The notes beneath the pieces were generated by a model that worked only from the letters and a program-made list of their open reading frames with translations, was not told the DNA's origin and made no database searches. DNA of 64,000 bases from the NCBI RefSeq assembly GCF_004027225.2, contig NC_044284.2, positions 39,232,420-39,296,419 on the forward strand, written 5' to 3'. The position numbers and the translations under genes are program-made. Source of the stretch: Strigops habroptila. Its lineage: Eukaryota; Chordata; Aves; Psittaciformes; Psittacidae. Positions 1 through 32,119 of the stretch are shown here, in pieces. The stretch's first letter is position 1. Each line of letters begins with the position of its first letter.

Positions 1-112
1 TAAGAGAAGAGCTACTGATGTCATATCTGGATTTCTGCAAGGCCTTTGACATGGCCCCCCACATGTATCTGACGTATCTCCCACCGCATCTGATTTCAGC
101 CCCCGTGGTGTT
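1..112 (+). mobile_element. CR1 LINE reverse-transcriptase fragment (left copy)
   Basis: The same element as at 50004-50115, cut by the window edge. TGGATTTCTGCAAGGCCTTT encodes the DFCKAF motif. Confidence 0.78.
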
Positions 113-677
113 CACAGACGCAGGAGAGGGAGCATGATGCTCATTGACCGACTATGAATGGCCAGAGGCAGGTAAGCACAAAGCTTATTCTGACTCTGGT
201 CACTCCCTGCACCACTGCCAGTCCTACTCCATTCTTGTTAAACTTTCTTCTGAAAGCAAGTCTAACCTTTGGATGGTATCAACCATCCCTTAATTTCTTT
301 CACTGATAGGAGCAGTATTTTCTTCCTAGGGAAGTGAACTGGTTGAATTTATATTTATCTTACCATAAATGTTAAAATATCAAGTATATGGCACTCCCCA
401 TCTGCAAGACACAGTATCTGGCACCCCTCAAGTAGCACTCCCAACCCTGTCAAGATACAAGCAACAACCCTGTTCCCAGGATGGGGAAGGAACTAAGGAG
501 AGAAGGGCAATACCTCATCTGCTATTACAAAGGAAGTCAGTCAAAACCAGAAAGAATTAGAGCTAAGATGTTCATTGGCCTGGGGCCAATGCATACAACC
601 CCTTTCTCCCCTTCTAACTGCCTCAGTCAAGGCACCTAGCACAAGAAACATTAAACACTCTAGAACAAATGCTTTAC

Positions 678-893
678 ATGTGCAATACGAATCCACTTCT
701 CCATGATCTTGGCTCTTTGCTGTGTTTTCAGTTCCTTGCTATTCAGGATAGTGCTGACAACACATTTGGTAACTGCATTGAACTGAGAGATGGTGGCTCT
801 GATGGTAGGTGCCACGTGCTTGTTTTCTTCCTTATGCCTTTGAGACCAGATGCATCCCAAGCAGTGGTGGGGCACAACTTTCTTGAAGAGTTC
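678..893 (-). CDS. RGL1: RGL1-like exon: RasGEF core, left copy
   Basis: A 72-codon, phase 0-0 exon matching 50678-50893 with three base changes. It encodes [16 protein letters not shown], then QRHKEENKH where the right copy has QRDKEENKH. The acceptor cactctag and donor GTAAAG are both intact. It is the most 3' exon of this copy inside the window. Confidence 0.93.
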
Positions 894-3800: not shown

Positions 3801-6800
3801 TGGAATCTTAGTAAGGTATCACCCATATTTTCCCAGGGACTTCAGGGAAGTTGCTCCTGATTTGCACTCATACAAGTGGATCCAGTTACAGCTCCAAATG
3901 AATGCAGAATCAAATACACTTAAGCTATATTGAGACCCTTCAATTAAATTCAGGATATCAAATAATGGTAGATAAAGCAATTGAAAGAAGGGAAGGGAAA
4001 AAGGGAAGGGAAAAGGGGAAGTGAAAGGAAGGGATAGGAAGGGAAAAAGAAGGGAAAAAGGGAAAGGAAGGGAAGGGAAAAAGGGAAGGGAAGGGAAAAA
4101 CAGAAAGGAAGAGAAGGGAAAAAGGGAAGGGAAGGAAAAAACAGAAAGGAAGGGAAGGGAAAAAGGGAAGGGAAGGGAAAAACAGAAAGGAAGGGAAGGG
4201 AAAAACAGAAAGGAAGGGAAGGGAAGGGAAAGGAAGGGAAGGAAAAAAGGGAAGAGAAGGGAAAGGGAAGGGAAGGGAAAGGGAAGGAAAGGGAAAGGGA
4301 AGGAAAGGGAAAGGGAAGGGAAGGGAAAGGGAAGGAAAGGGAAAGGGAAGGGAAGGGAAGGGAAAGGGAAGGAAAGGGAAAGGGAAGGGAAGGAAGGAAA
4401 GGAAGGAAGGGAAGGGAAGGGAAGGGAAGGGAAGGGAAGGGAAGGGAAGGGAAGGGAAGGGAAGGGAAGGGAAGGGGAAGGGAAAGGAAGGGAAAAAGGG
4501 AAGGGAAGGGTCGACAAAACTGTTTGAGTTGGAAGGGATCTACAACAATAATCTAGTCCAACTTCCTGACCAATTTAGGGCTGACCAAGTCAAAGCATGT
4601 TATTAAGGGCACTGTCCACTCACAGGCTTGGGGCTAAATCAAACACTTCCTTTGGTGCTCTTCCTCTCATCAATCACTGCTGCCGAGTCTAGCGACCAAA
4701 CTGAAGCTGTGTATTCCTCCACACTGTATTACACATTATCTGCTGCCTTAGTAGAAAGACTGCCCATTCATGGAAGCTTGGGGTCTGGGAAGAAGCAGTC
4801 TAAGCTTGAACCTAACTCTCGTGAGCACACGCTCTGAGACTGCCTCATCTGTGAAGATAAAACCCTAATCCTGACACGGGCAGCACGGGCAGCACTGTGC
4901 TGCCAGTACCCAATATCAAGCTTGAAGCACCAAGATCGCTGAACCCAGAAGACAGGTTGGTCTTGCTGACCTTAGGGTGAAATGCATAACAGAAATACAG
5001 CAGGAGAATCTTGATTTTACCCTTAGCCCGAAGACAAAGAGGGGCTGTCAGATTATACCATGCAAAAAGCTATCTTGGTCATGCTGACAGTGCAGGAAAA
5101 AGATGCTTAAGGAGTTACAGGAATGTTGGATTCCATTCAGGAAAGTTATCCCAGACCTTCTTAGACACAGGCAGCTAAGAAGTCACCAACTGCAGAGAAA
5201 TGCCCATGGACATTCTACAGACTAAGAGGAATGAGGGGAAACCAGAGCTGGTGAATCAACGTGCTCTTCACCCTGCCTGAAACAGAGGGAAGTGATCTGT
5301 TTATCTGCTTTTCCTAGTTTATGTAGGTTTTAATCCACACCCACCCGTTAGATTGGTTCTCAGATACTGCACAGATGTATGCTGATGGGAATTTCTTTAA
5401 AACCTGTTTTTTCAGGGATTTTTCATCCTTTTAACTTGATTTTGTAGGAAAAAAAGACTTACAATTTATGCTATGGTTTTCCAGAAATAACTTGAAGTTT
5501 TGTTGACGAATTTCAACTAAGTGTGGAAAAACTGAAAGAAGTCTGGAAAAATAACCTGATTTCTTCAAGTTTTAAGAAAACTCAAGCCTGGCTAAAAAAT
5601 AATGAGCAATTTAATTTTTCTGCTGCAGGAAAGACTGCGAGATCTTTGGTTCTTCATAGCAACATGCCGGTGACTCAGCGTGTGTATTTTTTGTGCCCCC
5701 ATTAGCACTGGCCGCAGCACAATTAGAAGTGAGGAAGACACAGACAAACTCTTTAAAGAGGATTTTGTTTACCTGAGCTGACAAAGAGATGAGGGAAAAG
5801 GACTTTTTTGTGCAGTCACATAACATGACACACTGGCCACGGCCACGGTTTCATGCTATCCTACTGTGGTGTTCAGAGTAGGACACAATGTGAGAGGCAA
5901 AAAGCCACTTGTTCCACAATAAAAGGCACAATTAGCATCTAAACTCCACGAGAAAAGGAAGTCCTGAAGATTTCCTCTGTGACACTGAAACCATCCCTGG
6001 ATTTCAAATCTCTTCCAGCAGTCATAAATGCTGTGGCGGGCACAAGAGGTAAGTTAGAGGTATTGCTACGAAACACAGTTTTCCTTCTGTAAGGAAGCAG
6101 ATCCCATGAGCTCCACTGCCATCAGAAAAACAGCCGAGATGACCAAGTGACAACAGCCCTGGTTTGCAGCAGGCTCTGTTTCTGCAAATGCTTTCTGCTC
6201 TGCTGTGTAGCTAGCTGGGAGAGCTCAGCCCTCCAATGAACCTATTTTTCACATCTACATAAACCTTCGCTGATACCTATTCCAATAACCACGTTTCCAA
6301 GACCCTCATGCAATAACAGTATTCCATAAACCCAACGATATTCCATGAAGAGGAAATGGCCTATGCTCTCAGTAAAAACCTCTAAACACACGTATCCAGT
6401 CTTCAGTCATGCCACATTCCGAGTTTTAGTAACAAACAAATTCCACATTTTGATAATAAAGCAGATGCAACCAGGAGCTGACATTCAAGGCAACAAAAAA
6501 ACCTCCAAGTATTTTGATTCATTTCTGTGGCCTGTCATTCATCTGGGGGAAAGCACCACCAATCTACTCCAAATCAGCAAACCAAAGCCAGTAGCAGAAG
6601 GAAATCACAACCTTATGCTCCTAGAGGAGGCTTGAAAGGACTTATACTGTTGCTCAAGCTCATCTAGGATTCAAAAGTCTCCAGAGTCAGCCATGGCAGT
6701 GCTTGGGACTGCAGAAGAGGAGGGTTTGAGGCCTTAAAGCTCTTTCACTTTTTGTACTAAGCAAGCTGGTTTTTCTTTTCATTCAGCTGGTCTGACTCCA

Positions 6801-9800
6801 GCAAGAATCTTCCCTTTTACAGCACTGGGGATGCAAGTATGAAATAAAGACAGGGGAAAAAAAAGTCATGTGTACTATCGTATGGACCTCTCTAATTCTT
6901 AATGCTACTCATCATGCTGATAATTTTTGTGTTTAATGTATGTATGGGTTTATTCTGAATTGTCACGTCTTGCTGTGTTCCATCAACTCTTTTTTTTGAA
7001 AGTCAACAGAAACCTGAGCTAAAAAAGCATGTAGTAGACACAGAGAACTTTGAAGGCAACGATGACCTAAGATGAAGAGGCAGCTCTGGCACACCTCGAC
7101 ACAAAAACATGCAGAACTGAGAAACAGCACCAGGCAATCTTGTTTATACAATGGAAGGAAGAGCAAAAGTAATTGCTTATAGGAGGAGATAGAGGGTAAG
7201 GTTACTCACTCCTTACTACTCTCTTATCAGACAACTAAGGGAGGCAAGGCATCATATTTCTGGAAACACAGACTTTTGACTGGAATTCCACCTTTTCTGG
7301 ACTTTATTCTTCTGTTACTTACAACCACAAACTTTCTGCCTGACTGACAGTAGTAAGAACTGTGGAAAGCAAGCTACTGACCATGAAAAGCTAAGGTGGG
7401 TCCTGATAACTAAGGAAAAAAAAAAAGGCAAAGCAGAGTCATGCATGGCAGGTTTTTTTAAGCTCACAAAACTTTTGGAGGTGTTCAGAGCCTCCTCATA
7501 ACTCTCAGGTCCAAACTGTGTGTATTTGTAAAGTTACAAAATTACCGTTCCTTTGTTCAAGCTGTCTATTACTGAATGCAGTTTTAAAGAAAAGGGCAAT
7601 AATAATAAAAAGCCCAAAAGACATTTTAGATTATATGTAATTAAATCAGACCCCTGGTGAAAAATATCAGGTTTTTTGACCACTCCAGAGGCCCAAAAAT
7701 GACAGGAATGATGCATAAGTGAACAGAAGAAAATCCCCTTGGCAGAACGGATCCTTAGAAGGCATGATTCCAAACACAGCTGAAATGATCTTGGGTCAGT
7801 AACAACTATATGTCACTGCAAAAAGTGGGAGAAGCAACTGCTGGCTTGGACCCAGAATTTAGAAACATCAGGATAGGTTTATAGCTCCCACAAGTCTCTC
7901 AAATGAGGCTGTGCCATGAGTGTCCTCAAGCCCTAGGGTAGGACTTGCGGGTACTGAGCTACATGAGGCACGAGATGGAACACTAATGAACGAAAAAAAC
8001 CAAACCAAACCAAACCTTACATCACGCATTTTCCTTTTCAAAATAGTAACAATCTTAGAAAAATAAGCAGCTGTGCTGACTGTATTAATGAAAATTACGT
8101 CAGATAAACTCATCGGACATTGTGCTACGGCCGGGATAAGACCACATCCTCCTCTAATATCAAATCCTGACTAGAGCTCGCTGTACAGGGCAAAACTACA
8201 CATACGTGTGGACAACTGCTTCCCTTTCGCAGGAACTCCCGTTGTCAAGTTGTTCACGGGTTTGAACATCCAGGCATCCATCTCTGAAAAACCAGACAGT
8301 AGAGGGGCTTCAGGGTGGGGTCTGTTGCAAACAATTCTAGGCATGTTTGCACAGTGATTTTTAAAACAAAGCCACAGTCTCAGGTGGGACATTTGTTTGC
8401 ATTACTGAGGTACCTTAGTAAGAGAGAAATAAGCATGGAAACTTCTGAAAATCAGAACTATGTTGACCATGTTGGGGAATGCGCATAAATATGCTTTCTG
8501 GGAATCTAAAGTGGATATATGAATGTACTTTAAGACAAAATTAGTTGTCTTAAGACTAGTTAAGTGCCTTTAATTGAAAAGCTTGTTGTGTACCATCCTG
8601 TTTAGAGCCACCTTTGACTGACTGATTCACATTATTTGAGCTCTTCGCAAGGCTTTGGGGGGGGAGGGACACACGATATTAATTGTCTTGTGTGGGTCCC
8701 AGTTTGGTTTCTGAGCAATCAGACACAGCACACTTTCTCTACCTGGTGACTATGCTTTAATGAGACTTGGGATGTGGGCAGCATGCCTTTACACATTCCA
8801 TGTTTATGCGGAAATTGTGGATTTTGCAGCATTCTTGGCATCTGTTTGTCAGGTTATTAAGTTCATGTCCACTAAAATTAATGGAAGGAATTCCTGACAA
8901 CATCCCCCTATCATGTAAAAAATGGCCTAGTTTCCATTATTACTGGCTCTCACCTGTCAAGGAGAAGCTCTAGTACTTCCTTAGCGGAAGTGAAAGCCCT
9001 GTATGTTGATAGAAAAGTATTCACATAAGTAAAATCATTATCCTCAAAAGATGTTATAAGGTTTTCTACAAGCTTCTCCAGGGTTCCAGTTGTTATTTTC
9101 CTGGTCTTGCTGACAGTATGTTCTTTTATCTGGTCTTCCTCAACCTACAAAGTTGAAAAAAAAACAAAGCACAACAATCAGACAGAAGTCAGATCCCTGA
9201 CAAGGCTTTCACAATGAAACACAGATTAAATTTCATCTTTTCACAGGAATAGTACATCTTTAATTATTAACTTATTTTGGCTCTCTAAACACCAAATCCT
9301 CTATGAAATAACGGAGGCTTTTAGTAAGTTTATCTTTAAGATACTTCTCTGACATGCTCCACATAAGATTTTACAGCCTGTCTGCTATCAAGTTATCTTA
9401 CGATCCCTGCGTATATTAGTATCTAAAAGCATATCCATTATCCCACAAAGAATAATACTACTGGAGGGAACAACAGTGGTAAGCCGGTGTCTCACTTAAC
9501 TTCTGAATAAACATGAAAACTGATCACAACTTTAGCATTGGCACTTGTGATTCCCTTGCTGAAAATACCAACTTTGGCTTGCCACACAGAATGTAAGGTC
9601 ATGAACACATCTGGATGTGAAACATTTCATGATACTTTTGCAAGGACGGTGTCAAAGTCATCTTGCAAAGTGCTGTCATAACATTTCAATTTTCTCTTAC
9701 AGTTTCCAGTAGGTACAATATTTGTCAACAAATCTAGGCTTTGGTGTTGGGGGTGTGTGTGTTTTTTAAACAGCACTTGGGTTTAATGCTTACAGCCTGC

Positions 9801-12800
9801 TTTACGTCTGAACTAACTAGAAACATTCCCTTAAATTCTACCATGATTTAGAGGACAGCTCAGGAAATGATTTTTGTGAGTAGTTTAAATACTTATTTGT
9901 TAAGTAGGTGTGATAGAGAAGCTTTAAAAATGGGATTATAAATGAAAACATCAACAAGAGCAACCTAACAGAAAATTCCTCTCTACCTTTTGAGTTGGCT
10001 ATCTCTGGGAAGGAACTTTAAGACCACTAGTGTGGGAAAGGCTTAACTCTACAGAGGCAGCATGGGGAAGGCATGCAGTTCCCCTCCCATTGTTGCTGTT
10101 TAATGACCGATGTACTACATCCTCAGCTTGAGGTAAATGTGCTGTGATGCATCCTTTCTTTTGCCTTGATACAAATACATGGCATGAATAATCACTATTT
10201 AATCACTATAGTTGCACATCACCAGTACCAATGAAACTCCAGTAACAAAAAGGTCATTTTCCTTCAGAGAAAGAAATGGCTTGAGCCTGTTTGAGTGTCT
10301 GCAACCATGAGAGAAAAGAAAAACCCTGTCAAAAATCCCCAGACATCACCATGATTTATGTAAATAAACTACTGAAAGGTCACCTGAAAGAATTAAATAC
10401 ATTTTTGAAGTGTTCACATTTACTGAGTTTAGAAGATATTTTAAGGCAAGCCTTGTACCTAGCTAGGATTAATGGCATTATGCAAAGGAAAAATCAGGCC
10501 ATCGTGGAAGTATTTCAAGACTGTGGAAAAAAACCCCAGCTTAAATCTTTTTTAGGTTAGATTAAATATATCAGTAGAAAAATACTACAGGAAAGAAACT
10601 TGCATTGGGTATGAACACACAGCAGTCTATCTCATCAGCAATTCTGCACTCTCAGAATAAAAACTAAGGAGTTCAACCCATTTTCATTGCAGCATTATTC
10701 TGCTGGAGAGCTCCTCCTTACATATGCACCCACAGCAAGCTTTCAACTGGGACTGCTGTGATAGTTCTCTTTCAAACCACAACCTTCGCCTCCTAGGTAA
10801 CAGCTGCTGCTGTATCACGATACATTATTGTGGTATAAGCTCTTTGCAAATTTTGACAGTGGCACACAGTGATCACCGTTACATGGTACCAATTAAAGCC
10901 ACCCGAAGTTTTGCACCATTTTGTGCATCAGAACAACAGAAAAGGCTCTCCACTGCCTTCTGTTCCTCTCCTTCAACAACATGTCCAGAACTCTAACAAA
11001 GATGCTAGACCGCAACATCTCAGGGCTTCAGTAAGATTTTCTTGGTCCTCCACAAGGCTGACCATAAACAAACAGAAATGGCATTTTACAGCCCGAGTTT
11101 TTCATATTTTTAAACAGTCTTCTTTGGATTTTTCAGGCCACGGAGCATAGCTTTGATAATCTGCAAGCGTAATGAGCAAACAGTTTCCAACCAGATAGAC
11201 AGCATCTTTCAAAAGCAAGCGTAGAAAGATTGAACTGAGGTCTAATCTTGCAAGTCCTTGGTTTTTTGAGGTTGTGCAGGTACTGATGATCTAGTGTAAT
11301 TCTAATATCTTTACTAATCCTCTGCAATGCTGGACCTTCAGAGGGGCACACTCTCTTTTAAGGCGATCATTTTGCAGCTACGCAGCACAAAACATTACCC
11401 ATGTACACAGCTCTTGCTGAAACACGAGAGCTCCATGCAGACTAAAACACATTCAGGATGAAAAGTTCCTTCAAGCACAAACTGACTCCAACACCAGCTG
11501 CAGATGCTCTGTACTGAAGGAGCTATAATTTGGTTCCAAGCTGGTTCTAATCAAGGGCCTGACCTTGTCCCATACAGGCTGCCTCCTGAACCCACACTCA
11601 GTCTCACTGGCTCACCAAGGCATTGTGAAAGTGCAAGATAGCCACACACACAATTGCAGGATGAGGAAAAGATATGAGTATCAGCATAATATCCAACAGA
11701 TGTCTTCTCTCTGCAATGGCCACCAACACAGGGCTTGAGGAAGCAGGCCCTAAATTACAAGCAGCTCGTTACCAACATAGCTGGCTACTAGGTGTGTAAA
11801 AGCAAGACTCCTTTGCGAATCCGGTGCGACACCGCGTGCAACCTCCGATACCGCAATCTCCATTTCCCATCAGTTCTTCTCTGCAAAAACTGGCCGAGAG
11901 ACGCTGATCTCTGGCCATTTTGTCTACCAATGACAGGAAAATAAAGCAAAAACCTCCATATGCCCCAAAGTTGCCAAGTATTTCACTCTGTTTGAAAGCT
12001 AAAATACAGATCTGTATTCCACAGCCTCGTGGGCCATAGGTACAAATGCTACCTGTTGACATTCAATGGGATTCTAAATTAAAAACTCCACCATCTCCTA
12101 AATTAACAATACAGCCCAGCAAGAGGGAGGAGAGACTCAAGATTAAAACAAAATAGTTCAAATTCCAAATGGTACAAAAGTAGGCTGCTACCCAAATAAA
12201 AACACAGAATTGTAGCCACTATTTCATCAATATCACTGGAAGCAATTGCTTTTCCCAAAAACCCCCACTGGTTTGCAGGTTTTTTCCAATGCAAATATTA
12301 TCTGTTGAGATTCTGAAAGCAAGAATTGTGGAACGAAACCAATGGAATAGTTTTTCATTAGGCAGACTGGAAAAAAGTACTGAAAGAAAACAATTAGGAT
12401 GAAGAAATAAATGAGATATCAAATATTCTTCAGCCTTAGTCATTTAAAACATTACCACTTTGCTAAAGACTTGTTTTATTTAGAAATTCTGCACAATTAT
12501 TTTCAAGATAGTGAACCTAGTGTCTCTGCAACACAATTTCTACTGATTTTGACAGATTTTCAAATGCTTTTGCCTTGCCTTGAAACTTACAGCTTTTCCA
12601 GATGGGGAGTTTTCCACTCTAGCTATTTTTATTAACTTCATGGACAGACACCCTGTGCTGGAATAAAACTGCCTAAAGTGCAGTAACTTATAATTTATCT
12701 AAAAATAAGGCACTCTAATCAAGAATGACTGTTTCATTTCACTGTTTGCCTAACTGTGAAAATGGAATCACCTTTAACCTTCGGAAAGTGGGAATAAGAT

Positions 12801-15800
12801 TTTTTTGTCATTTTGCCCTTATGTTTTGGATATTGCTTCCTTACACACACAGGCTCTCTAGCATAAGCCTTCACATTTCCTCATTTTGGATGCTGCTGAA
12901 AAATCAGAATTCTGCATGTTGACTGCACCCATCTCAGAAGCCAGAACGACTTTATGACTTTTCCTATGATCTGACAGCTACGGGTATTCCTGGATTTCCA
13001 AACCTCCACCTTTTTCCTTTCTTTTCTTACCACATAAATAACCTTTCTTGGCAGCAACCCTGAGCTTCCAGGACCAACTGTGACACCCAAAGGAAACAGA
13101 TTTCACTTCTACTCTGTTCTAATTACAACTCTATGTACTTCTAAAAACACATAAAGGAGAGATTCTAAGCAATATCTGTATACAGAGAGACTCTGCTTAC
13201 TTTTCTTGACTTTGGTTTCACCGCTGTTGTACTGCTCAATGTCATGGAACTTCACAAGAAACGGATATAATAAAAATCTCAGGGCAGTTAAATAATAGTT
13301 TGAAATACCAACCTGGATACTACATCAAACCAAATTCTTGTATTCCTGTCTTCGATCCTAAAGCAATTACACAAACATAACAAAAAAGATAGATAGATAG
13401 ACAGATAGATAGATAGCGAGAGAAGTCAGTGCTAAAAGTTCATTTCCTAACAATGCACATGGAATTCAGCTCCCTGGAGCAGGCTCCAAAGTCCAGGAGT
13501 AGCCTTCGAAAACACCACTGTGCCACCTTTACCTACCCCTAGCCGTGGTTTTTCTTCCTCAGCAGCCTTCTCAACCTGGGCTCTTTCCAGGGTGTAATCA
13601 GAAAGAGCGCCCTCTTCATCCTCCTCTTGAACAGTGCTCTGCCAGGAAAAGGGCAAAGAAAGAAAAGTAAGAGAAAGGGACGTTTCCCCTCTTCTGCTAA
13701 CAACAGTCCATCCCAAAGAAATTATACAAAGGTAGCAAAGTAATAACGAAAGTTGCAGCCACCTCGCGTAGGTTTGGCTCAAACTGCCACAGCGGCACCG
13801 ATTGTAGGAACCTGAGGACATCTTATATCAGCTGGGGACTTGCCCTGACATGGTGAAGGCGCTCAGCAGCTCGCCACATTCAGTGCGTGTGTGTTTAAGC
13901 TCATTTTGCTTACTGCTGAAGCCTTTTGTGTGTGCTTTAAAATGCACCTTGGACAAACAGTACAGAGCTGTAATCTCTGCAGAAATGCAGACACTTAATT
14001 TCTCATCCGGCTCAGAAAGCAACACAAACCTAAAATACCCAAACCTGTATTCATTCAAGTTTTGAGGAACACTTTTCTGCTAACTTTTGAGATCCCTTCA
14101 CTAGTCAAAATACCATGACTATTTCTTTGGGAGGCCTGAGACAGGTTCCCAACAGCAGGAAAAATGCCATAGCACAGCCTGAAATAAACACTCAGCTTCT
14201 CAGGCCGTAAGCTAAGATCCTCACTTTTGGACTAGGGACCATCTCATCCATGGCCACAACTGGTCAAATCTTTTTCAACCTTCAAGAAAAGAAGAGGAGT
14301 CAACACAAGGAGAGAGTTGTTTCAGATGATCCAGGCAGACAACTCCAGTGTTTTGGTGGGGTTTTAGGGTCAGTGCTAAAAGTTACTATCCTAACAATGC
14401 ACGTGGAATTCAGCTCCCTGGAGCAGGCTCCGAAGTCCAGGAGCAGACTTCGAAAACGCCACTGTGCCACCTTTACTTACCCCTAGCCGTGGTTTTTCTT
14501 CCTCAGCAGCCTTCTCAACCTGGGCTCCTTCCAGGGTGTTATCGGAAAGAGCGTACTCTTCATCCTCCTCCTGAACAGTGCTCTGCCAGGAAAAGGGGAA
14601 AGAAAGAAAAGTAAGAGAAAGGAACGTTTCCCCTCTTCTGCTAACCACAGTCCATCCCAAAGAAATTATACAAAGGTAGCAAAGTAATAACGAAAGTTGC
14701 AGCCACCTCGCGTAGGTTTGGCTCAAACTGCCACAGCGGCACCGGTTGTAGGAACCTGAGGACATTTTATATCAGCTGGGGACTTGGCCTGACATGGTGA
14801 AGGCGCTCAGCAGCACGCCACGTTCAGTGCGTGTGTGTTTAAACTCATTTTGCTTACTGCTGAAGCCTTTTGTGTGTGCTTTAAAATGCACCTTGGACAA
14901 ACAGTACAGAGCTGTAATCTCCACAGAAATGCAGACCCTTAATTTCTCATCCGGCTCAGAAAGCAACACAAACCTAAAATACCCAAACCTGTATTCATTC
15001 AAGTTTTGAGGAACACTGTTCTGCTAACTTTTGAGATCCCTTCACTAGTCAATATACCATGACTATTTCTTTGGGAGGCCTGAGACAGGTTCCCAACAGC
15101 AGGAAAAATGCCATAGCACAGCCTGAAATAAACGCTCAGCTTCTCAGGCCGTAAGCTAAGATCCTCACTTTTGGACTAGGGACCATCTCATCCATGGCCA
15201 CAACTGGTCAAATCTTTTTTAACCTTCAAGAAAAGAAGAGGAGTCAACACAAGGAGAGAGTTGTTTCAGATGATCCAGGCAGACAACTCCAGTGTTTTGG
15301 TGGGGTTTTAGGGTCAGTGCTAAAAGTTACTATCCTAACAATGCACGTGGAATTCAGCTCCCTGGAGCAGGCTCCAAAGTCCAGGAGTAGCCTCCGAAAA
15401 CACCAGTGTGCCACCTTTACCTACCCGTAGCCATGGTTTTTCTTCCTCATCAGTCTTCTCAACCTGGGCTCTTTCCAGGGTGTCATCGGAAAGAGCGTAC
15501 TCTTCGTCCTCCTCCCGAACAGTGCTCTGCCAGGAAAAGGGGAAAGAAAGAAAAGTAAGAGAAAGGAACGTTTCCCCTCTTCTGCTAACCACAGTCCATC
15601 CCAAAGAAATTATACAAAGCTAGCAAAGTAATAACAAAAGTTACAGCCACCTCCCGTAGATTTGGCTCAAACTGCCACAGCGGCACCGATTGTAGGGATG
15701 TGAGGACAGAATCACAGAATCACAGAATGATCAGAGTTGAAAAGGACCTTAAGATCAACTAGTTCCAACCCCCTCGCCATGGGCAGGGACGTCTCACACT

Positions 15801-18800
15801 AGACCATGTCACCCAAGGCTCTGTCCAACCTGTCCTTGAACCCTGTCAGGAATGCAGTATTTACCGCTTCTTTGGGCAACCTGTTCCACTGCCTCACCAC
15901 CCTCACAGTAAAGAGCTTCTTCCTTATACTTAACCTGAACTTCCACTGTTCAAGTTTAAACCCATTGCCCCTTGTCCTATCGCTACAGTCCCTGCTGAAA
16001 TGAGTGGGTTTGTATGCAACAACACTTACCTAAGAACGTTTCTAAAATTTATTCTGCAGTTGTTATTTTTCTCTAGGATAAAATTTAAAAACAAAATGTT
16101 TGCAAGGACTTGCTTTGACTTTCAAGGGAATAAAAGTATAAAATTCAACTCCCCAAATGCTCCTAGTCTCCATACACACACATATCTATGTTGATTTAAC
16201 TACCTGCACTGTCAAAAACTTCATACCCTCACTTGAACAGATGATCTTAAGCTCCTTTCCAACCCTAACTATTCTATGATTCTATTAAGGATGCTGGGGA
16301 GGGACTCTTCCTTAGGGACTGTAGTGGTAGGACAAGGGGTAACAAGTTCAAACTTAAACAGGGGAAGTTTAGGTTAGATATAAGGAAGAAGTTCTTTACA
16401 GTGAGGGTGGTGAGGCACTGGAATGGGTTGCCCAAGGAGGTTGTGAATGCCCCATCCCTGGCGGTGTTCAAGGCCAGGCTGGACAGAGCCTTGGGCAACA
16501 TGGTTTAGTGCGAGGTGTCCCTGCCCATGGCAGGGGGTTGGAACTAGATGATCTTAAGGTCCTTTCCAACCCTAACTATTCTGTGATTCTATGATTCTAC
16601 GATTATTACCTAGCCAGGCAATGAATCAGCATACCGGGACACGTAACATTGGGTGGGACAACCAAAAACCAGTATCCTTCTCCAACATGAGGTTTCCCTG
16701 CATGTTTTCATGACTTGTATCAATGATACACAATGCAGCACTTCCCTCCTTCCCTGCTCCAAAACGTAGAAGAGTTCCAACAACTCAGTTGAATTACCAA
16801 ACACAAAAATTACTCAGCTTTTATAAATATATGAAGTATCATCACAGTATTAGGAAAAGTCTTTTCTCTTCAAATTCTTAGGATGAAAAAATAAAATAAT
16901 AAAGAGGGGGGGGAAGCGCTGGAATGATGTTCTATTCCTGTTTCTGTAGAAATGTTCTCTGCCACCCAGGAGTGAGTATCTACATTCAAGCAAGTAATGC
17001 GATGCACATAAAAAAAGAACCGTATGTGGAAAAAGGTAAGCAGTTCATCTCTGCTTTTAAGATGTATCAGAGGAAGCATACCTGTGTACGCTATGGTAAA
17101 GAGAGGCCTGAACCTGCAGGGACAGTCTGTATTCATTGTGCTGTCCCATCCGTTAGTGTTTGTGTAACAGCTCCCTGGGAATGGGCCATCTCTCCCATCT
17201 GCTGTTCAGTAATTTGATGGGCCAGTTCCTCTACGGTTGCCATGATCTTTAATCACCAGGATTTCCGTGCAAACGCTGCTGCTGCACCAGTGATGGAGAG
17301 GAGCTGTAGATCACGCCTTTCCACAGCAGCAGCAATTTACATCGTCTTAAGCCAGATGAAGTTTCCCACACTTTCCCACAGCTCTGTAAATTGTTGTGAC
17401 ATGAGCCTTGGAGCTCAGACACACTTATTTTTGGATCTTACAGATGAACCTCAGGTATCCATGTTTGCCTTCACATCAGGTATGCTTAGTTACTCTTGAG
17501 AGCTCCCTTCACCCGAATAAACCCAGACAGGCGCCAGCGGTATCTGAGAGGAGCGAACTGCCTCTGTGCTGGAGATGGCAGGCACAAAGCGGCTGGGGGT
17601 CGGGAGCACAGCAACTGGTCTAACCTTTTTTATGCATCAAGAAAAGAGGAGGAGTCAACACAAGGAGAGAGTTATTTCAGATGATCCTGGCAGACAACTC
17701 CAGTGTTTCGGCGGGTTTTTAAATAGTGAGAGTAGTCAGCGCTACAAGTTACTATCCTAACAATGCACGTGGAATTCAGCTCCCTGGAGCAGGCTCCGAA
17801 GTCCAGGAGCAGCCTTCCAAAATGCCACCGAGCCACCTTTACTTACCCCTAGGGATGGTGTTTCTCTGTTCGGAGGCTCATGAATCAGCGCTCTCTCCAC
17901 GATGACATGAGAAAGAGCGCCCTCTTCATCCTCCTCCTGAACAGTGCTCTGCCAGGAGAAGGGGAAAGACAGGAAAACAAGAGAAACGAACGTTTTCCTC
18001 TTCTGCTAACCACCCTCTATACCCGGTGCTCTACTGCTTTGTGCAGAGCTGAGGGCAGAAAACGGGCTGCACAAAGTAAATAGAGTTGCCTATGAGCTGC
18101 ATGAGTTTACTAGTCTTTCATGATAATTCAAACATATCTCCAAAAAAAAATCTCACAAGGTAATGTTATTCAGTAATTTGTTTGTATGTACATAGAAAGA
18201 AGACAGGGAGATGGAGCTTACTGATTTCTTCAGTACAAGGACTGATTTTCCCTTCTTTTACACACACGTACACACACACTTCCATTTAGTATCATCACTA
18301 TTGTAACCACCAAGTTTTCTACCACAGCTTCTAGACAGCATCAGAAATCAGGTCCAAGAGACATGAGAAAAAAAATAATCTTATGGACATTGTGATAGAA
18401 ATGGGTCATTTTGTTTGCACCAGCTGAATTAAGGAAAAGAAACCCCCCTTCCTGATTTGTGAATCAAGTGGCTGTCATGTACAAGTGCCACTCAAAAGAT
18501 TGCCTTCTCTGAGTTGCAGATCTTTTTATTTTTTGCACCTAAGGAAGGTGTAATAATTAGATTGTTCGTGGCACAAACACGTATTGGGCTGATTTAGCAA
18601 AATTCTCTTTTTCCTCGATTGCTCTCTCTTTCCCATAAACAGGCTGATTCTCCATAAGATGTTTTTCATTTTCAATACGTTTACAAGTTTGTTATTTTTG
18701 TTTTGGCTAGTTGCTACTCAATCCTTCTCCTCGTTCCAAAATTCCTTGCCATAGTTCATGTTCTTTTCTAGCAAGCTTCAGTTTCCGTAACAAGACATTT

Positions 18801-20329
18801 AACTATTGGATTAAATAGTTCTCAGAACTTCCCATTGACAAACGTAACTTTCGTTTTCCCTTCTGCTCTGTTTCGTTTTGCTTTGGTTACAGATATATTG
18901 CACGTATGCCTTTTATGGCCCTGCTACAGTATGCTTAAACAGTATAAATCTCTGTTGACTATGAGGATTTTAATCTCTTTAGTTTTGATTCTAGGCTCTT
19001 TTTCAATATTCCTCTTGAAAAAGAAATATTTTTATTTCCTCCCCTAGAAGTCTGTACCACTCTGGTGTCCTTTAATCCAAGCACTCCCCAGAGGACTCTG
19101 GGCTTAATAATTATGTCGCCCTGTCTGTTAGGGTACTGGGAGTACTTCCCACTCTACCTGGGGCCTCCCATTCCTCTGAGCAGACTTTTGCCAGCTAGCT
19201 CTGTATTTGTATTTAACTAGTTCAAAGCCCAAGGACTGTGTCCCTCCCACCCATTGAGTTATAATCAGATGGCAAGTCTTAAGTTTGACTCATTCACTTC
19301 ACGCATACGTAGTTTCCAGGTAGAGTAAATGAACTTTCAATGTAGATGCTGTTCCTACAACAAATCCTAGGCATCCCATGTTTTCAGTAGCATTATATAT
19401 GTTAGAGATCAGAATGAAAATATCCAAAACTAACTCCACCGCTTAGATTTAAAGCATGAGGAAAATCTGCATAAAGCAATCTTGTGAAGTGAGAAGCCCA
19501 AAACAAAGTTTGGCATTTCTGAACATCGTGCATAAACACAACACTCTTAACCTCCAAGAGCTCCTTAAAATGACAGGGATAAATTAATTATAAATTCTTG
19601 TATTACTATCATAGTTCATCTTATTTGTTGTTTGCTTTTTCGGGTTTTGCTTTTTATTCTAAATGACCCATATTGAATCTACAAACTATGTCCCCCTTTA
19701 TTGTGGGACACACTTCAAAGGACTCAGAAGTTCCTAGACCTCATGTTGAGAAGCCTGATGAGTGCCAGTCACATAGGAGAGGTCTTCTGGATGCTGAAGA
19801 CTGTTTAGCACCATGGGCAGATTTCTCAGCCAGATCTAAAACAGATTCTTGAACGCTGGGATGGGCAGATGGGCACTCTGTGAGATTCTCTGGTCCCAGA
19901 TCACAACGTTGTTAAGCCCAGCGAAAAAAGGCTTCCCACTAGTGTAACACAACATAGGTTTCATTTCAGCTCAGAGCGAAGACATGAAAAACAATCTCAT
20001 TTTCCAGTTGCCTTGGGCTACTGACTTTGGTTTCAGCACTACTGTATTGCTCAATGTCACAAGAAACAGATATGATAAAAATCTCAGGGCAGTTAAAGAA
20101 CAGTTTAAAATACCAACATGGATACGACATCAAAACAAGTTCTTCTATTCTTGCCTTTGATCCCAAAGAAATTATAGAAACATAACAAAACAATAACGAC
20201 AGTTACAGCCACCTCCCGTAGGTTTGGCTCAAACTGCCACAGCGGCACCCATTGTAGGAACCTGAGGACATTTTCTATCAGTTGGGGACTTGGCCTGACA
20301 TGGTGAAGGCGCTCGGCAGCACGCCACAT
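678..20329 (-). CDS. RGL1: Second RGL1-type gene, 5' part only (gene-level entry)
   Basis: A second minus-strand RGL1 copy whose 3' half would lie left of base 1. Recognisable exons in transcription order: first-exon candidate 20213-20329 (ATG, 39 codons, phase 0 out), a 102-base phase 0-0 exon such as 17847-17948 (or copies at 15425, 14481 or 13537), REM exon 8954-9144, REM exon 3453-3637, and RasGEF exons 1621-1745 and 678-893. All junctions listed are phase-compatible. A short linker exon present in RGL1 between the two REM exons was not found. The 1-8045 section is nearly identical to 50004-63302. Whether this gene is expressed, an assembly duplicate or a decaying copy cannot be told here. 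Confidence 0.75.
1320..1425. repeat. A/C-rich low-complexity tract, left copy
   Basis: Runs of A with CCAAACCAACC and AACAACAAC; the same tract occurs at 51320-51420. Open frames through it on both strands are composition artefacts. Confidence 0.85.
1621..1745 (-). CDS. RGL1: RGL1-like exon: linker into the RasGEF domain, left copy
   Basis: A 125-base exon identical to 51617-51741, with splice sites preserved. It encodes the acidic linker and [13 protein letters not shown] at the start of the RasGEF domain. Confidence 0.93.
3453..3637 (-). CDS. RGL1: RGL1-like exon: C-terminal half of the REM domain, left copy
   Basis: A 185-base exon matching 54990-55174 with a single change (NYPC here, NYSC there). 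The ctcttag acceptor and GTAAGT donor are kept. Its first base T completes a codon: after the AG that ends exon 8954-9144 it would give Ser, so the two REM exons can be joined directly in frame. Confidence 0.93.
3983..4510 (+). repeat. Purine (GGGAA/GGAAA)n repeat, left copy only
   Basis: More than 500 bases almost entirely of G and A with a few interspersed C or T. The right copy has only a short GGAAAGGGAAAGGAGAGGG stretch at 55526-55575. Long open frames here on both strands are repeat artefacts. Confidence 0.95.
4528..4635 (-). mobile_element. Old CR1-like 3' fragment
   Basis: GAGTTGGAAGGGATCTACAA and AATCTAGTCCAACTTCCTGA resemble the CR1 3' end on the minus strand, more diverged than the other copies. 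Present only in the left duplication copy. Bases 4636-4820 that follow are also left-only and unrecognised. Confidence 0.6.
8954..9144 (-). CDS. RGL1: RGL1-like exon: N-terminal half of the REM domain, diverged
   Basis: A 191-base exon, acceptor tttgtag, donor GTGAGA, phase 0 in and phase 2 out. It encodes [17 protein letters not shown], then [20 protein letters not shown] and [20 protein letters not shown]. This aligns with the recalled RGL1 segment beginning VEGDQLPPGHTVS and running through [21 protein letters not shown]. It is shortened by a few residues around the ETCKIR motif ([10 protein letters not shown] here). It was not in the long-ORF set and was found by reading the minus strand. 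The equivalent exon of the right copy is not in the window. Confidence 0.88.
9145..13200 (-). other. Intron or spacer between REM exon and array
   Basis: AT-leaning sequence with no recognised gene or transposon. Short open frames such as 10291-10560 have no recognisable motif. Confidence 0.5.
13388..13418 (+). repeat. (GATA)n microsatellite at the array edge
   Basis: GATA units with one GACA variant, directly before array unit 1 and directly after the duplicated flank shared with 20.0 kb. Confidence 0.9.
13537..13638 (-). CDS. Module B exon copy 1 of the 944-base array
   Basis: A 34-codon, phase 0-0 exon: [20 protein letters not shown] then [14 protein letters not shown], with donor GTAGGT. 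The EEGA, TLERAQ, AA and RLG spacing matches the N-terminal exon of RGL1 that precedes VEGDQ. It is the copy nearest to the REM exon at 8954-9144. Confidence 0.58.
13763..13879 (-). pseudogene. Broken first-exon module A, unit 1
   Basis: Homologous to 20213-20329. ATG at 13879 is kept, but after 18 codons the frame meets TAA at 13823-13825, where the 20.3-kb copy has GAA. The downstream [12 protein letters not shown] coding and the GT donor remain. Use from an internal acceptor (cctcag at 13812-13817) cannot be excluded. Confidence 0.5.
14481..14582 (-). CDS. Module B exon copy 2 of the 944-base array
   Basis: A 34-codon, phase 0-0 exon: [20 protein letters not shown] then [14 protein letters not shown]. 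The acceptor is cctggcag and the donor GTAAGT. The reading frame and splice sites are preserved as in the neighbouring copies. A longer open frame running through it (14391-14765) is unspliced read-through, not a separate gene. Confidence 0.55.
14707..14823 (-). pseudogene. Broken first-exon module A, unit 2
   Basis: Same module one 944-base period later. The ATG position reads ACG and the same in-frame TAA is present at 14767-14769. The donor is intact. Confidence 0.5.
15425..15526 (-). CDS. Module B exon copy 3 of the 944-base array
   Basis: A 34-codon, phase 0-0 exon: [20 protein letters not shown] then [14 protein letters not shown]. The acceptor is intact and the donor is GTAGGT. It differs from copies 1 and 2 at several codons yet stays open. 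Its own first-exon module at about 15651-15708 is cut by a CR1 insertion. Confidence 0.55.
15651..15708 (-). pseudogene. Truncated first-exon module A, unit 3
   Basis: The donor side of module A is present up to the TGAGGACA motif. A minus-strand CR1 element then begins and the rest of the unit is missing. Confidence 0.5.
15709..16003 (-). mobile_element. CR1 LINE 3' fragment interrupting array unit 3
   Basis: Starts with the repeated octamer ACAGAATC on the plus strand, then AGTTCCAACCCCCTCGCC. It joins directly to the module A sequence, so the array existed before this junction formed. Confidence 0.9.
16222..16604 (+). mobile_element. CR1 LINE 3' fragments, plus strand
   Basis: Two adjoining CR1 tails. 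The first ends with TTCTATGATTCTATTAAGG near 16290. The second runs from 16291 through GTTGGAACTAGATGATCTTA and ends in a tandem CTATGATT-type tail at about 16604. It lies opposite in orientation to 15709-16003. Confidence 0.88.
16605..17634. other. Unrecognised spacer within the array region
   Basis: No module copy, transposon or conserved coding frame was recognised. Confidence 0.4.
17635..18010 (-). repeat. Detached partial copy of the array unit
   Basis: Matches the unit from GAGGAGTCAACACAAGGAG through the GTCAGCGCTACAAGTT start motif and module B to shortly beyond the exon. It lacks the module A side. It is more diverged than units 1-3. Confidence 0.75.
17847..17948 (-). CDS. Module B exon copy, nearest downstream of the open first exon
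   Basis: A 34-codon, phase 0-0 exon: [20 protein letters not shown] then [14 protein letters not shown]. Splice sites are cctggcag and GTAAGT. Being the first copy downstream of 20213-20329, it is the natural partner of that exon. Joined to 8954-9144 it would give PSLG then VEEDQ, the same junction position as RGL1 (WLG then VEGDQ). Confidence 0.6.
18011..20024. other. Unrecognised spacer, AT-rich
   Basis: No module copy, exon or transposon recognised. It would be the intron between the open first exon and module B at 17847. Confidence 0.4.
20213..20329 (-). CDS. Candidate first coding exon of the RGL1-like gene (module A, open copy)
   Basis: ATG at 20329 opens a 39-codon frame beginning [15 protein letters not shown] and ending [12 protein letters not shown] at a GTGGCT donor in phase 0. 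This fits the phase-0 acceptors of the 102-base exons to the left. Other copies of the same module (near 13.8, 14.7 and 15.65 kb) lack an open frame or are truncated, so this is the only copy able to start the protein. The start choice rests on frame and phase only; no transcript evidence is available. Confidence 0.55.
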
Positions 20330-20382
20330 TCAGTGTGTCTGTGTTTAAGCTCATCTTAGTTTCCTGTGCCGCCTTTACTTAC

Positions 20383-20484
20383 CCCTAGGGGTGGTGTTTC
20401 TTCGGCAGGAGCGCCGTGAATCTGCGCGCTTTCCAAGGTGTCATAGGAAAGAGCGCCCTCTTCCTCCTCGTCCTCACGTGAGCG
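20383..20484 (-). CDS. Module B exon copy, most upstream, diverged
   Basis: A 34-codon, phase 0-0 exon encoding RSREDEEEEGALSYDTLES then AQIHGAPAEETPPLG. The acceptor is cctggcag and the donor GTAAGT. It lies upstream of the open first-exon copy at 20213-20329, so it would need another first exon further right, which was not found. It is related to RGL1 exon 2 (recalled as EEVEEGAVYHVTLKRVQ) by EEGA, TL, Q and the terminal LG before the splice. Confidence 0.55.
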
Positions 20485-20575
20485 CTGCCAGGAAAAGCGG
20501 AAAGAAAGCAAAGTAAGAGAAAGCAACGTTTTCCCTCTTCTGCTAACCACACTCTATCCCAGGTGCTCTACTGCT

Positions 20576-21746
20576 TGTAGATTTGTCTTTTTTTTTTTTT
20601 TTCTTTTGCGTTAGATTTAAAGGGAAATCACCGAAGTGAAGCAGGAATTCAGCTTATCTATGGGTCTCTCATTTTCTTGAATGCTACGTTCATTCTATCT
20701 GATTTCACAAAATGCAGCAAAGGTTTTATTACCCTCTTCTCGCTCTGCTACAGTGGTAGGCACCATTAAATCAGACACCTTCTTCACAGCTTTCTTTTGA
20801 GCACTCTTCAGATTTACAAGAATTGTAAACAAATATCCCTCTGCAAACACGTGATGTTTTTTCATCATACATACTGCTCAAACAATTAAAATTTTGGGGT
20901 TTTACTAGTACCACAGCCTTGAACACAGAAATCTCTAATTTAGAAAGGGTATCTTTCAAGTGCAGTGCCACAAAATCCAGGCTTGGGGAGGCTGGGACTT
21001 GGCTTTTTGAATTGCTTTTCTGTTTGCTTTTACCTCCTCCATCTCTAAAATACCCCATAGTCAAACACAACAGTCTGTACACCAGTGACTTGCCTTCTGC
21101 CAGTGTCTCTCGGGTGAGACCCTCCTCTCTCTCCCACAACATCCTTGAAAACAGATGCATTTCAAGGAGAAATTGAGAAGCTGTTTGAAGAAAGCAGAAA
21201 GGCAGTTTTGAAATGTGGCTGGCAATACACTTGTTTTCAATGTCCACTATGTTTCTCTCCCTTTAGTGAAACACAACAATTGGATACGATCATTACATAG
21301 ATAAGGAAGATGCTCAGTGATGTTCATTGGATGCAGTACCAACCACTCACAACCAGTGGCGTGGTTACATACACCCAAGCTCTCTTCCTAGCTCCCTTAA
21401 ATTTCTGCCTTCTCTGACATTAGAGGAAGTATTGCTATTGCAGTGGCCTAAACCAGTAAGCTAGAAAGCGTATCAACTTCTCCCTCCTGACTGCGCTGCA
21501 TATGTAAGTGCAGTGCTAAGACTTCCTCAATCGGGACAGCTCTACATTAAGAAAATGGGTGTTAAACATGTTTCTGGAAGTAACCTGTTCTGTTAGGGGA
21601 GCCAAAAATGCTTTTACCAGCCTAAGTCGTCTCCAGTCTTTTCCTCTTTATGTTGTTATAACTCTTGTCTTCCACCTGTTGCAAAATCCGAGCTTTCCAA
21701 AGCCCATATTCCTACCCTCCAGAGCAGTCAAAATGCAGCATTTTGA

Positions 21747-23389: not shown

Positions 23390-24085
23390 CCCATCGGCCG
23401 TGCGGCACACGTTCTGTTGGCCCTGCGTTGTGCGACCCCCGCTTCGCGCCCCGCGCCGGGGCTGTGCGAGGGTGTCAGGGTCCTGCCTGGCTCGTACCCG
23501 CCTGAAAGCACGACGGCACTTGGGGAACTTGCTCCTCCATGACATGTTCCGCCGCCAGGCGCGCAGGGACCGCAGCGACCTCGACCGCGTCGAGGGCGGA
23601 CTGAGCTTGTTGACAGCCGCGGCGGTGACACCCGCGTCCGTCACCGCGGCAACAGAACGCGCCCTCGGGGAATTCGCGGCGGGCGGCCGACCAATGGCAG
23701 CTCGCCTCGCGCGCCGCCCCGCCCACCGCTTGGCGCGTGGCCTCGCGCCGCGGGCGGGAAGCCTCCCCGCCAGCGCAGCCGCGCGGGGCGCGCGTCCCCG
23801 GCTCGCGCGTTGGCCGCGGCGAAGCAGCAGGTGTCGTCGGCGCGGTCCCGCCGGGTGGAAGCGCGCGGGCCCGGGCCCGGGCCCGAGCACGAGCACGAGC
23901 ACAAGCACGAGCACGAGCACGAGCGTTTCGTGGGTGAGGAGGAGGGGACGGGCACGCGGCGCCCGAGGAGCGCGGGGGGACCTCGTGCTGCGGCCATTTC
24001 CTTCCGCCGCCGGCAGGAGCGGGCGCGGCGCCGGGAGCGGGGAGCGAGGCCCCGGGGTCCGGGGGAAGGCCAGAAGGCCAGAGAG
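23390..24085. promoter_or_regulatory. CpG island, probable promoter
   Basis: A sharply bounded, very GC- and CpG-rich block in an otherwise AT-leaning window. Long open frames occur on both strands because stop codons are rare in such sequence, and none matches a known protein. It could drive COLGALT2-side transcription to the right, the RGL1-like gene to the left, or be the orphaned promoter of a lost gene. A small ATG-bearing candidate exon with donor GTAGGT lies at about 24141-24186 on the plus strand but is not recognised. Confidence 0.75.
23885..23925 (+). repeat. GAGCAC minisatellite in the CpG island
   Basis: About seven copies of a GAGCAC hexamer with one AAGCAC variant. Read as protein it gives the Ser-Thr or Val-Leu repeats seen in the frame translations, which are not evidence of a gene. 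Confidence 0.85.
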
Positions 24086-27818: not shown

Positions 27819-28090
27819 TAGAATCATAGACTGGATTGTGTTGTAAGGGACCTTAAAGATCATCTAGTTCCAACCCCCTTGCCACGGACAGGGACACCTT
27901 CCGCTACATCAGGTTGCTCAAAGCCCCGTCCAACCTGGCCTTAAGCACTTCCAGGGATGGGGCAGCCACAGCTTCTCTGGGCAACCTGTGCCAGTGTCTC
28001 ACCACCCTCATAATGAAGAACTTCTTCCTAATGTCTAAATCTCCCTTCGTTCATCTTGACACTCTTCCCCATTGTCCTGGCACATTCTGC
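27819..28090 (-). mobile_element. CR1 LINE 3' fragment
   Basis: Begins TAGAATCATAGACTGG and continues with GTTCCAACCCCCTTGCC, the reverse complement of a CR1 3' end. It is truncated to under 300 bases and lies upstream of the COLGALT2 exons. Confidence 0.88.
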
Positions 28091-28766
28091 CCCTCATCCC
28101 CGGTTTGGAGGCCGTTGCTGAGCCCTGGCTCTGTGCAGGGAGAGAGGCCCCATGTCCCAGGGTTGCTGCTGCATCTCCTTCATCACAGCTGCAGGTGGAA
28201 GCCCATTGCATCACTTGAGGCTGGCTTACTCAGAGGCTGAAAACCTGTTCCTGCTTTTGGCTCTGGGTTTGTGAAGGGATTGTCAGGTGAGGTGCCAGGT
28301 CTGAGCAGTGCAGGGGGGGATTTGGGGATGGGGGTTCCTGTGATACTCCCCAGGTACCAGCGGGAGTCCTGCTGTATGTGTACGCGTATCAGACACTGCT
28401 TTTGCTAAAGGCCAGTTCTGCCTCTGCCGTATGATTGTTTTTGTAGCGTGAAGGCAAAGGCTGGAACAGACCCTTTATCTGTTCTAAGAGGAGGCTTTCC
28501 AGTCTGTTTAGAGGAAAACTGATTGCAGGGTAAAAATAGCTGCTGTTAGGGAGCAAGTGGAAATTGATTTCATAGGAGAGGTCACTTGCTGCTGGCTGAA
28601 TAAAACAGAAGATGGCACTGTGGTGCTTTTTGATTGATTGCTTATGAAGCAGACTTTCTTGGGACTGAGGTCCTGGCATAAGCTGGATTGTGGCGACATA
28701 GCAACAAAGCAGTGAAATCCGCTGGTAAAGGTCTGACTCTAATTTCTGGTTTTGTGTGATCCCCAG

Positions 28767-28886
28767 GAATCCAGATGTTCATCTGCAACCGTGAACACTA
28801 CGGTTTCCTTCCCATGCCCCTGAAATCGCAGCAGACACTGCAAGAAGAAACTGAGAACTTTGTGCACACGCTAATCGAAGCTATGA
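28767..28886 (+). CDS. COLGALT2: COLGALT2 exon (isolated), GIQM...NREHYGF segment
   Basis: Procollagen galactosyltransferase 2 adds galactose to hydroxylysine of collagen in the endoplasmic reticulum. This 120-base exon has acceptor tccccag and donor GTAAGT, phase 1 in and phase 1 out. It encodes GIQMFICNREHYGFLPMPLK then SQQTLQEETENFVHTLIEAM. The NREHYG motif and the following IDRPP fit COLGALT2 better than COLGALT1 as I recall them. The exon is intact. No upstream COLGALT2 exon was found in 24.1-28.7 kb. Confidence 0.85.
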
Positions 28887-29380
28887 GTAAGTTGCTGTGC
28901 CCTGCCATGATGGACACCCCACACGCCAGCCCTCACTCCCAGTACCCCGCAGTTAATGTTTGTGGAGCTCTCTTGCCAGCAGCCCAGCTTTCTTCCCCTT
29001 GGGATTCTGCATCCTGATCTGACTGTTCTCGTGCAGTTTTGATATGCAGTTTTCCATCTTCTACCCAGGGATGTAATCACTTCACAGTCAGGTCAACCCC
29101 ATTCACAAAATCCCTCAGCTTCCCCAGATCAAAAGCAAAGATGCATCTTTAATGTGGAGCGGGTGCTGCAGAACCCTGTGTTTTGTCATGATGCCTGTCT
29201 GGCACACGGCTGCTGGCTTCTGCTTTGCAACGTGGACGCTTTCTGCTATACCCGCTCCTGGCCTGACTTCACATCCCAGCTCCTTGGGGCTTTCGGCCCA
29301 GTGATGAAAACACATGGCAACGCATTATATTGATGCAACATGTACGTGAAGGTGATGCTTGGATCTCTCCTCTCTTTCAG

Positions 29381-29457
29381 TCGATCGTCCTCCCATTGAA
29401 CCCTCTCAGTATGTCTCTGTTCCTCCAAAGCACCCTGACAAGATGGGATTTGACGAA
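29381..29457 (+). CDS. COLGALT2: COLGALT2 exon (isolated), IDRPPIEPSQYVSV segment
   Basis: A 77-base exon with acceptor tctctttcag and donor GTAAGG, in phase with 28767-28886. It encodes the rest of IDRPPIEPSQYVSVPPKHPD then KMGFDE. In the family the next exon should begin IFMINLKRR, the start of the second glycosyltransferase domain. No such exon was seen before the RGL1 3' region, so the gene is truncated here. Confidence 0.85.
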
Positions 29458-30111
29458 GTAAGGAACTTACTTTTCTGTTACCGTCTTCCCACTCATCACC
29501 TGGAGGACCTGGGTTCTCCCTGCTGCTGAGCTTCTAGCCATTTCCCTCAGTGTACCCTGACGTTTACCTTTAGCTCTCAACAAGCTCATTGCACTCTTGC
29601 AGCGTGCAACTGGACTACACAGAGCTCATGATAAGCTGCTGTGACTCGATGGGTAACAGAGGTGAGACTGGTTTACTTGGACAACCCTTGCTAGCCCCTC
29701 TGTTGTTGAAACACAGAAGCCATCCTCACAAAAAACTGTAGACATTTAAACAAGATGCACGCCAGGAATGCTGGCGCTGTTACAACCAGTCCATAACTTG
29801 TTACTGGATGTGATGTTGAAAATGAAAACAATGCAGAAGGCAGGTTGTAGCTGAAGGGTTACACCTACAGGGATACAGCTGAAATGTGGTGTTTCAAGTT
29901 CTCAAGGGGGCAGGGAAGATGAGTTGCAGGAGCTGGAAGAAGTTCCAACAGTAAAAGCGATGAAGTTGATGAGAGCGATGGAGGTGGTGTGAGGTGTTAA
30001 ACAAAACCCAAACCCAACACCAAACAAACAAAAACCCCCAACCTGACATGCAGCAAGAAAGTCTAAGCTAAGAACATAGACTCACCCGAGGCAAATACTA
30101 GTGGAAAAACG
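29458..30111. other. Spacer between the COLGALT2 fragment and the RGL1 3' end
   Basis: No COLGALT2 exon follows. It includes a CA/AAACCC-rich low-complexity stretch at about 30000-30045. A breakpoint between unrelated segments could lie here. Confidence 0.4.
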
Positions 30112-31931: not shown

Positions 31932-32119
31932 TCACAGCGTAATTTTGCTGAGCCTATTGCTCCAACACCCCCGTCTGGCAGTTCTTGGGAGTGTTAGATT
32001 GCAATGGCTCCTCATTTTCAAATCCATGTTGACCGAAGCTTTTTTCCGCAGGATGAAATCAAAGTTCACATGGCTGTTCATGGCGTAAAACACATTGGCA
32101 TTGTCTGGGATCACCAGCT
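31932..32119 (-). CDS. RGL1: RGL1 terminal exon: end of the RA domain and C-terminus
   Basis: The last coding exon has acceptor ttttgcag and stop TGA at 31932-31934. It encodes [20 protein letters not shown] then DFILRKK, completing the RA domain, and a tail containing [19 protein letters not shown] that is characteristic of RGL1. An open frame continues upstream of the acceptor by chance (to about 32570), but the splice site and homology fix the exon start. Confidence 0.95.

Follow-up and report, generated by a model that had tools for sequence, protein, structure and literature searches.

The stretch of Strigops habroptila DNA considered here, 64,000 nucleotides from contig NC_044284.2 (C8:39232420-39296419, "the window" below), carries on its minus strand an array of five copies of a 102-base exon. 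Our reading, to which we assign a probability of about 0.55, is that this array is a bank of N-terminal exons of a second, older RGL1 gene, which lies tail-to-head beside an intact RGL1 and bears the signs of use in coding together with a divergence peak guarded against gene conversion. RGL1 is a Ral guanine nucleotide exchange factor (GEF) of the RalGDS family. From sequence comparison, the owner of the array is likely to be an old RGL1 paralogue, once or still working, whose N-terminal exon was multiplied, and the pattern of substitution suggests that this second copy coded for protein over a long time. The window itself is free of N, and searches beyond it covered 1.15 Gb of genome. Literature searches gave no publication on this RGL1 case that looked relevant, and none of the matches listed mentions RGL1. 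Coordinates of the features are collected in Table 1.

The preliminary description of this DNA, made from its letters alone, reported five open exons of 102 bases with AG and GT borders and phase 0 at both ends, and in all these respects it was borne out. Each copy has AG directly before it and GT directly after it (three copies read on as GTAAGT, the other two as GTAGGT), frame 0 is open in 5/5, and the junction with exon 3 of the same gene is of phase 0; adjacent, homologous and alike in borders and phase, the copies constitute a tandem duplicated exon. Their lengths being divisible by three, joint inclusion would keep the frame, and the proposal that they could be used singly or together without a frame break stands. 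Homology to the parental exon identifies the repeated unit as exon 2 of RGL1, which has been multiplied and stays open while the peptide that it encodes has diverged, as had also been claimed; the DNA matches rule out a resemblance by chance. Copies 4 and 5, whose exons share 70-77% identity with those of copies 1-3, are older relatives of those three, and copy 5 sits in an insert (19617-21003) that splits two blocks adjoining one another in the parental locus. A 27-base match at 19736-19762, with a twin in the sister array described below, was considered as a remnant of a sixth exon 2 and judged to be noise. Exon 2 has changed its protein freely, yet it has stayed open with its borders intact. 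When neutral evolution was simulated along the copy tree (20,000 runs, branch lengths set by hand), all five copies were open in 5.0% of runs at the exon's own rate and in 16.6% at half that rate, and were open with AG and GT kept in 0.26% and 3.6%, respectively; the openness of the five copies is in itself moderate evidence.

The copies are not exons of the full-length RGL1, as the preliminary description had taken them to be; they belong to a second, partial copy, and exon 2 of the parental gene is single. The second copy (678-20484) presents exons 7, 6, 5 and 3, all open and with canonical borders, followed by the five copies of exon 2, and its exon-by-exon homology to RGL1 (exons 2, 3, 5, 6 and 7) is accompanied by colinear blocks that include introns. 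A processed (retro-) pseudogene is ruled out by these retained introns, at 92-98% identity. The exon-2 region matches the parental locus at 78-82%. The lost exon 4 has 78 bases, so that the paralogue stays in frame when exons 3 and 5 are joined directly. As assembled, the joined exons give Pfam matches to positions 2-48 of the 106 of RasGEF_N and 2-78 of the 181 of RasGEF, and the remainder would lie beyond a run of 99 N (C8:39232321-39232419), perhaps an assembly gap, that abuts the left edge of the window; in view of this N run on the 3' side, a description of the paralogue as truncated was given up.

Between paralogue and parental gene, aligned introns differ at 449/13,528 bases (3.3%, within BLAST-alignable blocks) and exon 3 differs at 31/190 (16%). 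For exon 3, synonymous divergence (dS) is 0.51 (0.27-0.93), nonsynonymous divergence (dN) is 0.11 and dN/dS is 0.22 (bootstrap 0.08-0.51); had the lineage of the copy been free of constraint throughout, the ratio should be about 0.5 or higher. Exon 3 of the paralogue is, on this pattern, constrained, and because of the low ratio both copies of it would have been coding during the greater part of the time that the divergence took. Its synonymous sites (16/43 differ, p 5e-11 against the upstream introns) stand far above the adjoining introns, which differ at 72/1668 bases upstream and 28/291 (9.6%) downstream. A dS of 0.5 beside introns at 4-10% is hard to reach by a single duplication; two old genes that exchange sequence by conversion, while selection keeps certain exons apart, should show such a peak. 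The exon-2 copies differ from the parental exon by 25-32% (copies 1, 2 and 4 are 72-75% identical to it) and their flanks by 10-16%, leaving aside the non-homologous 3' flank of copy 5; for copy 4 the figures are 26/102 bases in the exon versus 34/284 (12%) in the flanks, p 0.002. Against the parental exon the copies have a dS of 0.21-0.35 and a dN of 0.31-0.46, dN exceeding dS in four of five comparisons. The exon indels, of 9, 3 and 15 bases, are all (3/3) multiples of three, as compared to 5/38 intron indels (p 0.005), and exons 5-7 differ at 4/532 bases (0.8%) versus 87/3461 in the local introns (p 0.007). Replacement of exons 2 and 3, which are neighbors in the mRNA, by way of cDNA was rejected, since the divergence extends into the intron on one side of exon 3, where it is 9.6%, and into the surroundings of exon 2, where it is 12%.

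A sister array, 36-37 kb from that of the window (C8:39209645-39215648), has four exon-2 copies, three of them identical to copies 1, 4 and 5 of the window and the remaining one closest to copy 3 (3 differences). The two arrays are 99.7% identical across 15.2 kb (38 mismatches), and their copy numbers differ, four versus five, a difference that unequal exchange would produce. The 3' exons of COLGALT2 lie in a 13-kb block that is present in two copies and part of a third, at 99.7-99.8% identity, and the region is, on these matches, a tandem segmental duplication. The history that we propose would begin with an older RGL1 pair inside this duplication, which also holds the COLGALT2 pieces. Interlocus gene conversion (or young re-duplication) would keep homogenizing both genes, and converted exons 2 and 3 would be purged by selection, the N-terminus of the paralogue doing something different, so that divergence peaks remain. 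Exon 2 would then have been multiplied through unequal crossing-over. Each copy could splice to exon 3, and the most likely product would be a Ral GEF that begins with one or another acidic segment of 34 residues, or with a string of them.

The main RGL1 gene beside the array is intact. It was modelled as 18 coding exons running from C8:39331056 down to 39264351 with an open frame of 768 residues, exons 4, 3, 2 and 1 being past the right edge of the window; the border-choosing program required AG/GT and an open frame, so that the parental borders are canonical by construction and the result lies in the existence of a full solution. RasGEF_N, RasGEF and RA domains are all full or nearly full (Pfam), 80/92 residues of the RA domain are identical to RGL1 in PDB 7scw, and exon 1, outside the window, reads MKLLWKAKM, 8/9 residues as in the human exon 1. 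A genome-wide search with human RGL1 as the query (36 matches; 40/40 candidates scored) gave its best set on C8, where only one set covers exons 8-18. A weaker second set at C16:34063-40759, near the contig start, is a compact relative, 46-70% identical to human RGL1, and is probably another RalGDS-family gene. Parental exon 4 is tandemly duplicated to the right of the window (C8:39296531-39296995 and 39298835-39299297; 465 columns, 96.8%), both copies being open and differing in the last codon shown (VVQ/VVR). Parental exons 2-3 are ~94% identical to human RGL1 and exons 5-18 only 42-86%, perhaps through conversion from the paralogue, or this may be ordinary.

Table 1. Features of the window and of the adjoining parental exon 2 (window positions unless marked C8)
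Feature	Position	Strand	Remarks
Paralogue exon 7, first part of RasGEF domain	678..893	-	last exon before the N run
Paralogue exon 6	1621..1745	-	bounds by homology to modelled parental exon
Paralogue exon 5	3453..3637	-	bounds by homology to modelled parental exon
Paralogue exon 3, start of RasGEF_N/REM region	8954..9144	-	lacks 3 and 15 bases of the parental exon, both deletions in frame
Blocks colinear with parental locus	2..13078		92.5-98.6% identical; interrupted by deletions, exon 4 being lost in one
Tandem units of 944 bases, with copies 1-3	13425..15708		13425-14764 vs 14369-15708, 95.9%
Exon-2 copy 1	13537..13638	-	open frame and borders; sister-array counterpart identical
Exon-2 copy 2	14481..14582	-	unit in excess over sister array
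Exon-2 copy 3	15425..15526	-	ends WLR, not LG; sister counterpart differs at 3/102 bases
Exon-2 copy 4	17847..17948	-	longest match to parental exon-2 region, 397 columns, 82.1%
Exon-2 copy 5	20383..20484	-	inside insert 19617-21003
Blocks 18187-19616 (94.1%) and 21004-21742 (95.5%)	18187..21742		colinear with sequence ~9-12 kb upstream of parental exon 2
Candidate first coding exon MSWRSKFPKCRRAFRR	23498..23545	-	phase 0, next bases GTACGA; conjectural
CpG island, GC 0.76, CpG observed/expected 1.2	23501..24000		upstream of array; the only strong island near the array, occurring once there
COLGALT2 fragment, two exons	28766..29460	+	carried by the segmental duplication
Parental RGL1, 14 coding exons (18 down to 5)	31932..55174	-	homology, gene model, domain search
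Parental exon 2, single	C8:39329916-39330026	-	homology search and gene model; reads STIQDEGEEVEEGAVYHVTLKRVQIQQAANKGARWLG

The preliminary description had also proposed that a module of promoter, first exon and second exon was multiplied, of which the exon-2 part holds and the rest does not. Neither the parental exon 1 nor its CpG island has a BLAST match among the copies (E 1e-4), a search for the exon 1 peptide across 250 kb found the parental one and, as the sole other hit, 5/9 residues with a stop, and a repeated unit containing promoter and exon 1 was accordingly rejected, the unit being without a recognizable CpG island or exon 1. When the two islands were compared under looser settings, short GC-rich stretches matched, and the two best of these matches (65.5%/145, E 9e-7; 63.6%/110, E 1e-4) ran in opposite orientation; we attribute them to composition, not homology. 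The island upstream of the array, whose full-length match among the 40 candidates scored is solely to its own sister copy, is a possible promoter of the paralogue, and MSWRSKFPKCRRAFRR may be the first exon; it is only a lead, because short open stretches before GT are common in such sequence. Diversification of an N-terminus thus stands as a possibility, but in the second RGL1 gene, which has a candidate first exon only.

Some other features of the region may be noted. COLGALT2 adjoins at C8:39182745-39200370, with further pieces (one partial copy and one fragment) at 39223931-39229431 and in the window, and some COLGALT2 exons flank the exon-2 array to its left as well as its right; these assignments were made by comparison with a COLGALT2 yardstick protein. 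A dispersed repeat at 15708-16598, 22527-22802 and 27819-28038 of the window is presumably CR1-like, and part of 22850-23246 matches many genome sites (8,343 candidates, 40 scored).

Several points weigh against an anciently coding paralogue held apart by selection. Gene conversion between the two RGL1 genes is inferred indirectly, from the divergence pattern; the comparison is between paralogue and parental gene in one genome; the intron divergence is that of alignable blocks; and the P values are uncorrected for multiple tests. The low divergence of exons 5-7 could arise with only the parental gene under constraint (p 0.20). Frame 1 of the exon-2 copies is nearly open too, copy 3 being stop-free and copies 1, 2 and 5 having a stop in the last codon only (copy 4 has an internal stop in this frame, and frame 2 has stops in 5/5). 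The dN/dS among copies, which the preliminary description had singled out as a check, is 1.2-1.5 for copies 2, 4 and 5 with intervals from 0.43 to 6.9, spanning 1, and the exon-2 ratios taken overall are about 1-2 with similarly broad intervals, so that diversifying selection is a possibility. Paralogue exons 8-18 are not among the 36 genome matches to RGL1 and may be hidden in the N run or lost, and the first exon of the paralogue remains a candidate.

The reading that best survives beside ours, a real possibility to which we give rather less than even odds, is that the paralogue is a dead or dying fragment, once coding, from which deletions severed the promoter and the 3' half, its exon-2 units multiplying as passengers through unequal crossing-over. 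The failure of parental exon 1 and its island to match among the copies, the deletion of exon 4, the exons 8-18 that were not found and an exon-2 dN/dS of about 1 would all suit such a fragment, as would the sister array, on whose left side RGL1 exons 3-18 are missing over 59 kb (as far as 39150001). Protein search found no stop in 9/9 exon-2 copies of the two arrays (mostly near-identical pairs, amounting to ~five independent sequences), nor are there stops in exons 3, 5, 6 and 7; these observations, the in-frame exon indels and the exon 3 ratio of 0.22 speak against it, although a recent death would still fit. Rather improbable in our estimation is a diversity generator, in which an old paralogue kept alive by conversion would be growing a bank of acidic exons, with conversion running both ways and the full-length RGL1 a chimera of conserved exons 2-3 and exons 5-18 of the fast-evolving type. 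We are more skeptical still of an assembly artefact, i.e., that the arrays flanking the N run are two haplotypes or a mis-joined contig, which would make the second RGL1 copy, or the number of exon-2 copies, an error. The N run does end at the window edge, between two nearly identical arrays, but the N-free window holds paralogue exons 3-7 and parental exons in one piece, 92-98% alike and too different for haplotypes, and two copies of the 13-kb block already lie together to the left of the N run; an artefact could remove the sister array, not the five copies of the window. Least credible is that exons 2 and 3 changed fast and recently under positive selection, in a duplicate that is young and has undergone no gene conversion. 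The 3.3% intron divergence and the excess of dN over dS in exon 2 would favor this reading, but it meets an exon 3 dS of 0.51 with low dN, selection on protein not being expected to bring many silent changes, and an exon-2 dS far over 3.3%.

The paralogue that we propose shares with RGL1 its exon order and phases, the starts of RasGEF_N and RasGEF and the homology of exon 2; it differs in having five copies of that exon, in missing exon 4 and the parental exon 1, in having exons 8-18 unassembled, and in the altered state, in its copies, of the conserved exon-2 end KG.RWLG. According to a published review of tandem duplicated exons spliced in a mutually exclusive manner (PMC9741552), most events keep key residues and change conservatively. 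The RGL1 copies resemble such exons in lying side by side, homologous, open and of equal length and phase, whereas they change freely and their mutually exclusive use would be hypothetical. Published divergence peaks in gene-converted paralogues include exon 5 of the red/green opsins (PMC3924837) and copepod GOT1 (PMC3728101), in which, as in the RGL1 pair, particular exons are highly diverged and the surrounding introns little; for RGL1 the conversion is deduced from the divergence pattern.

If the paralogue is unexpressed, it would be the record of a gene that long remained coding until duplication broke it. Expression, on the other hand, would make the paralogue an activator of Ral whose set of alternative N-termini can be expanded, and would provide an example from a vertebrate of selection, gene conversion and exon multiplication acting on neighboring exons of one gene.

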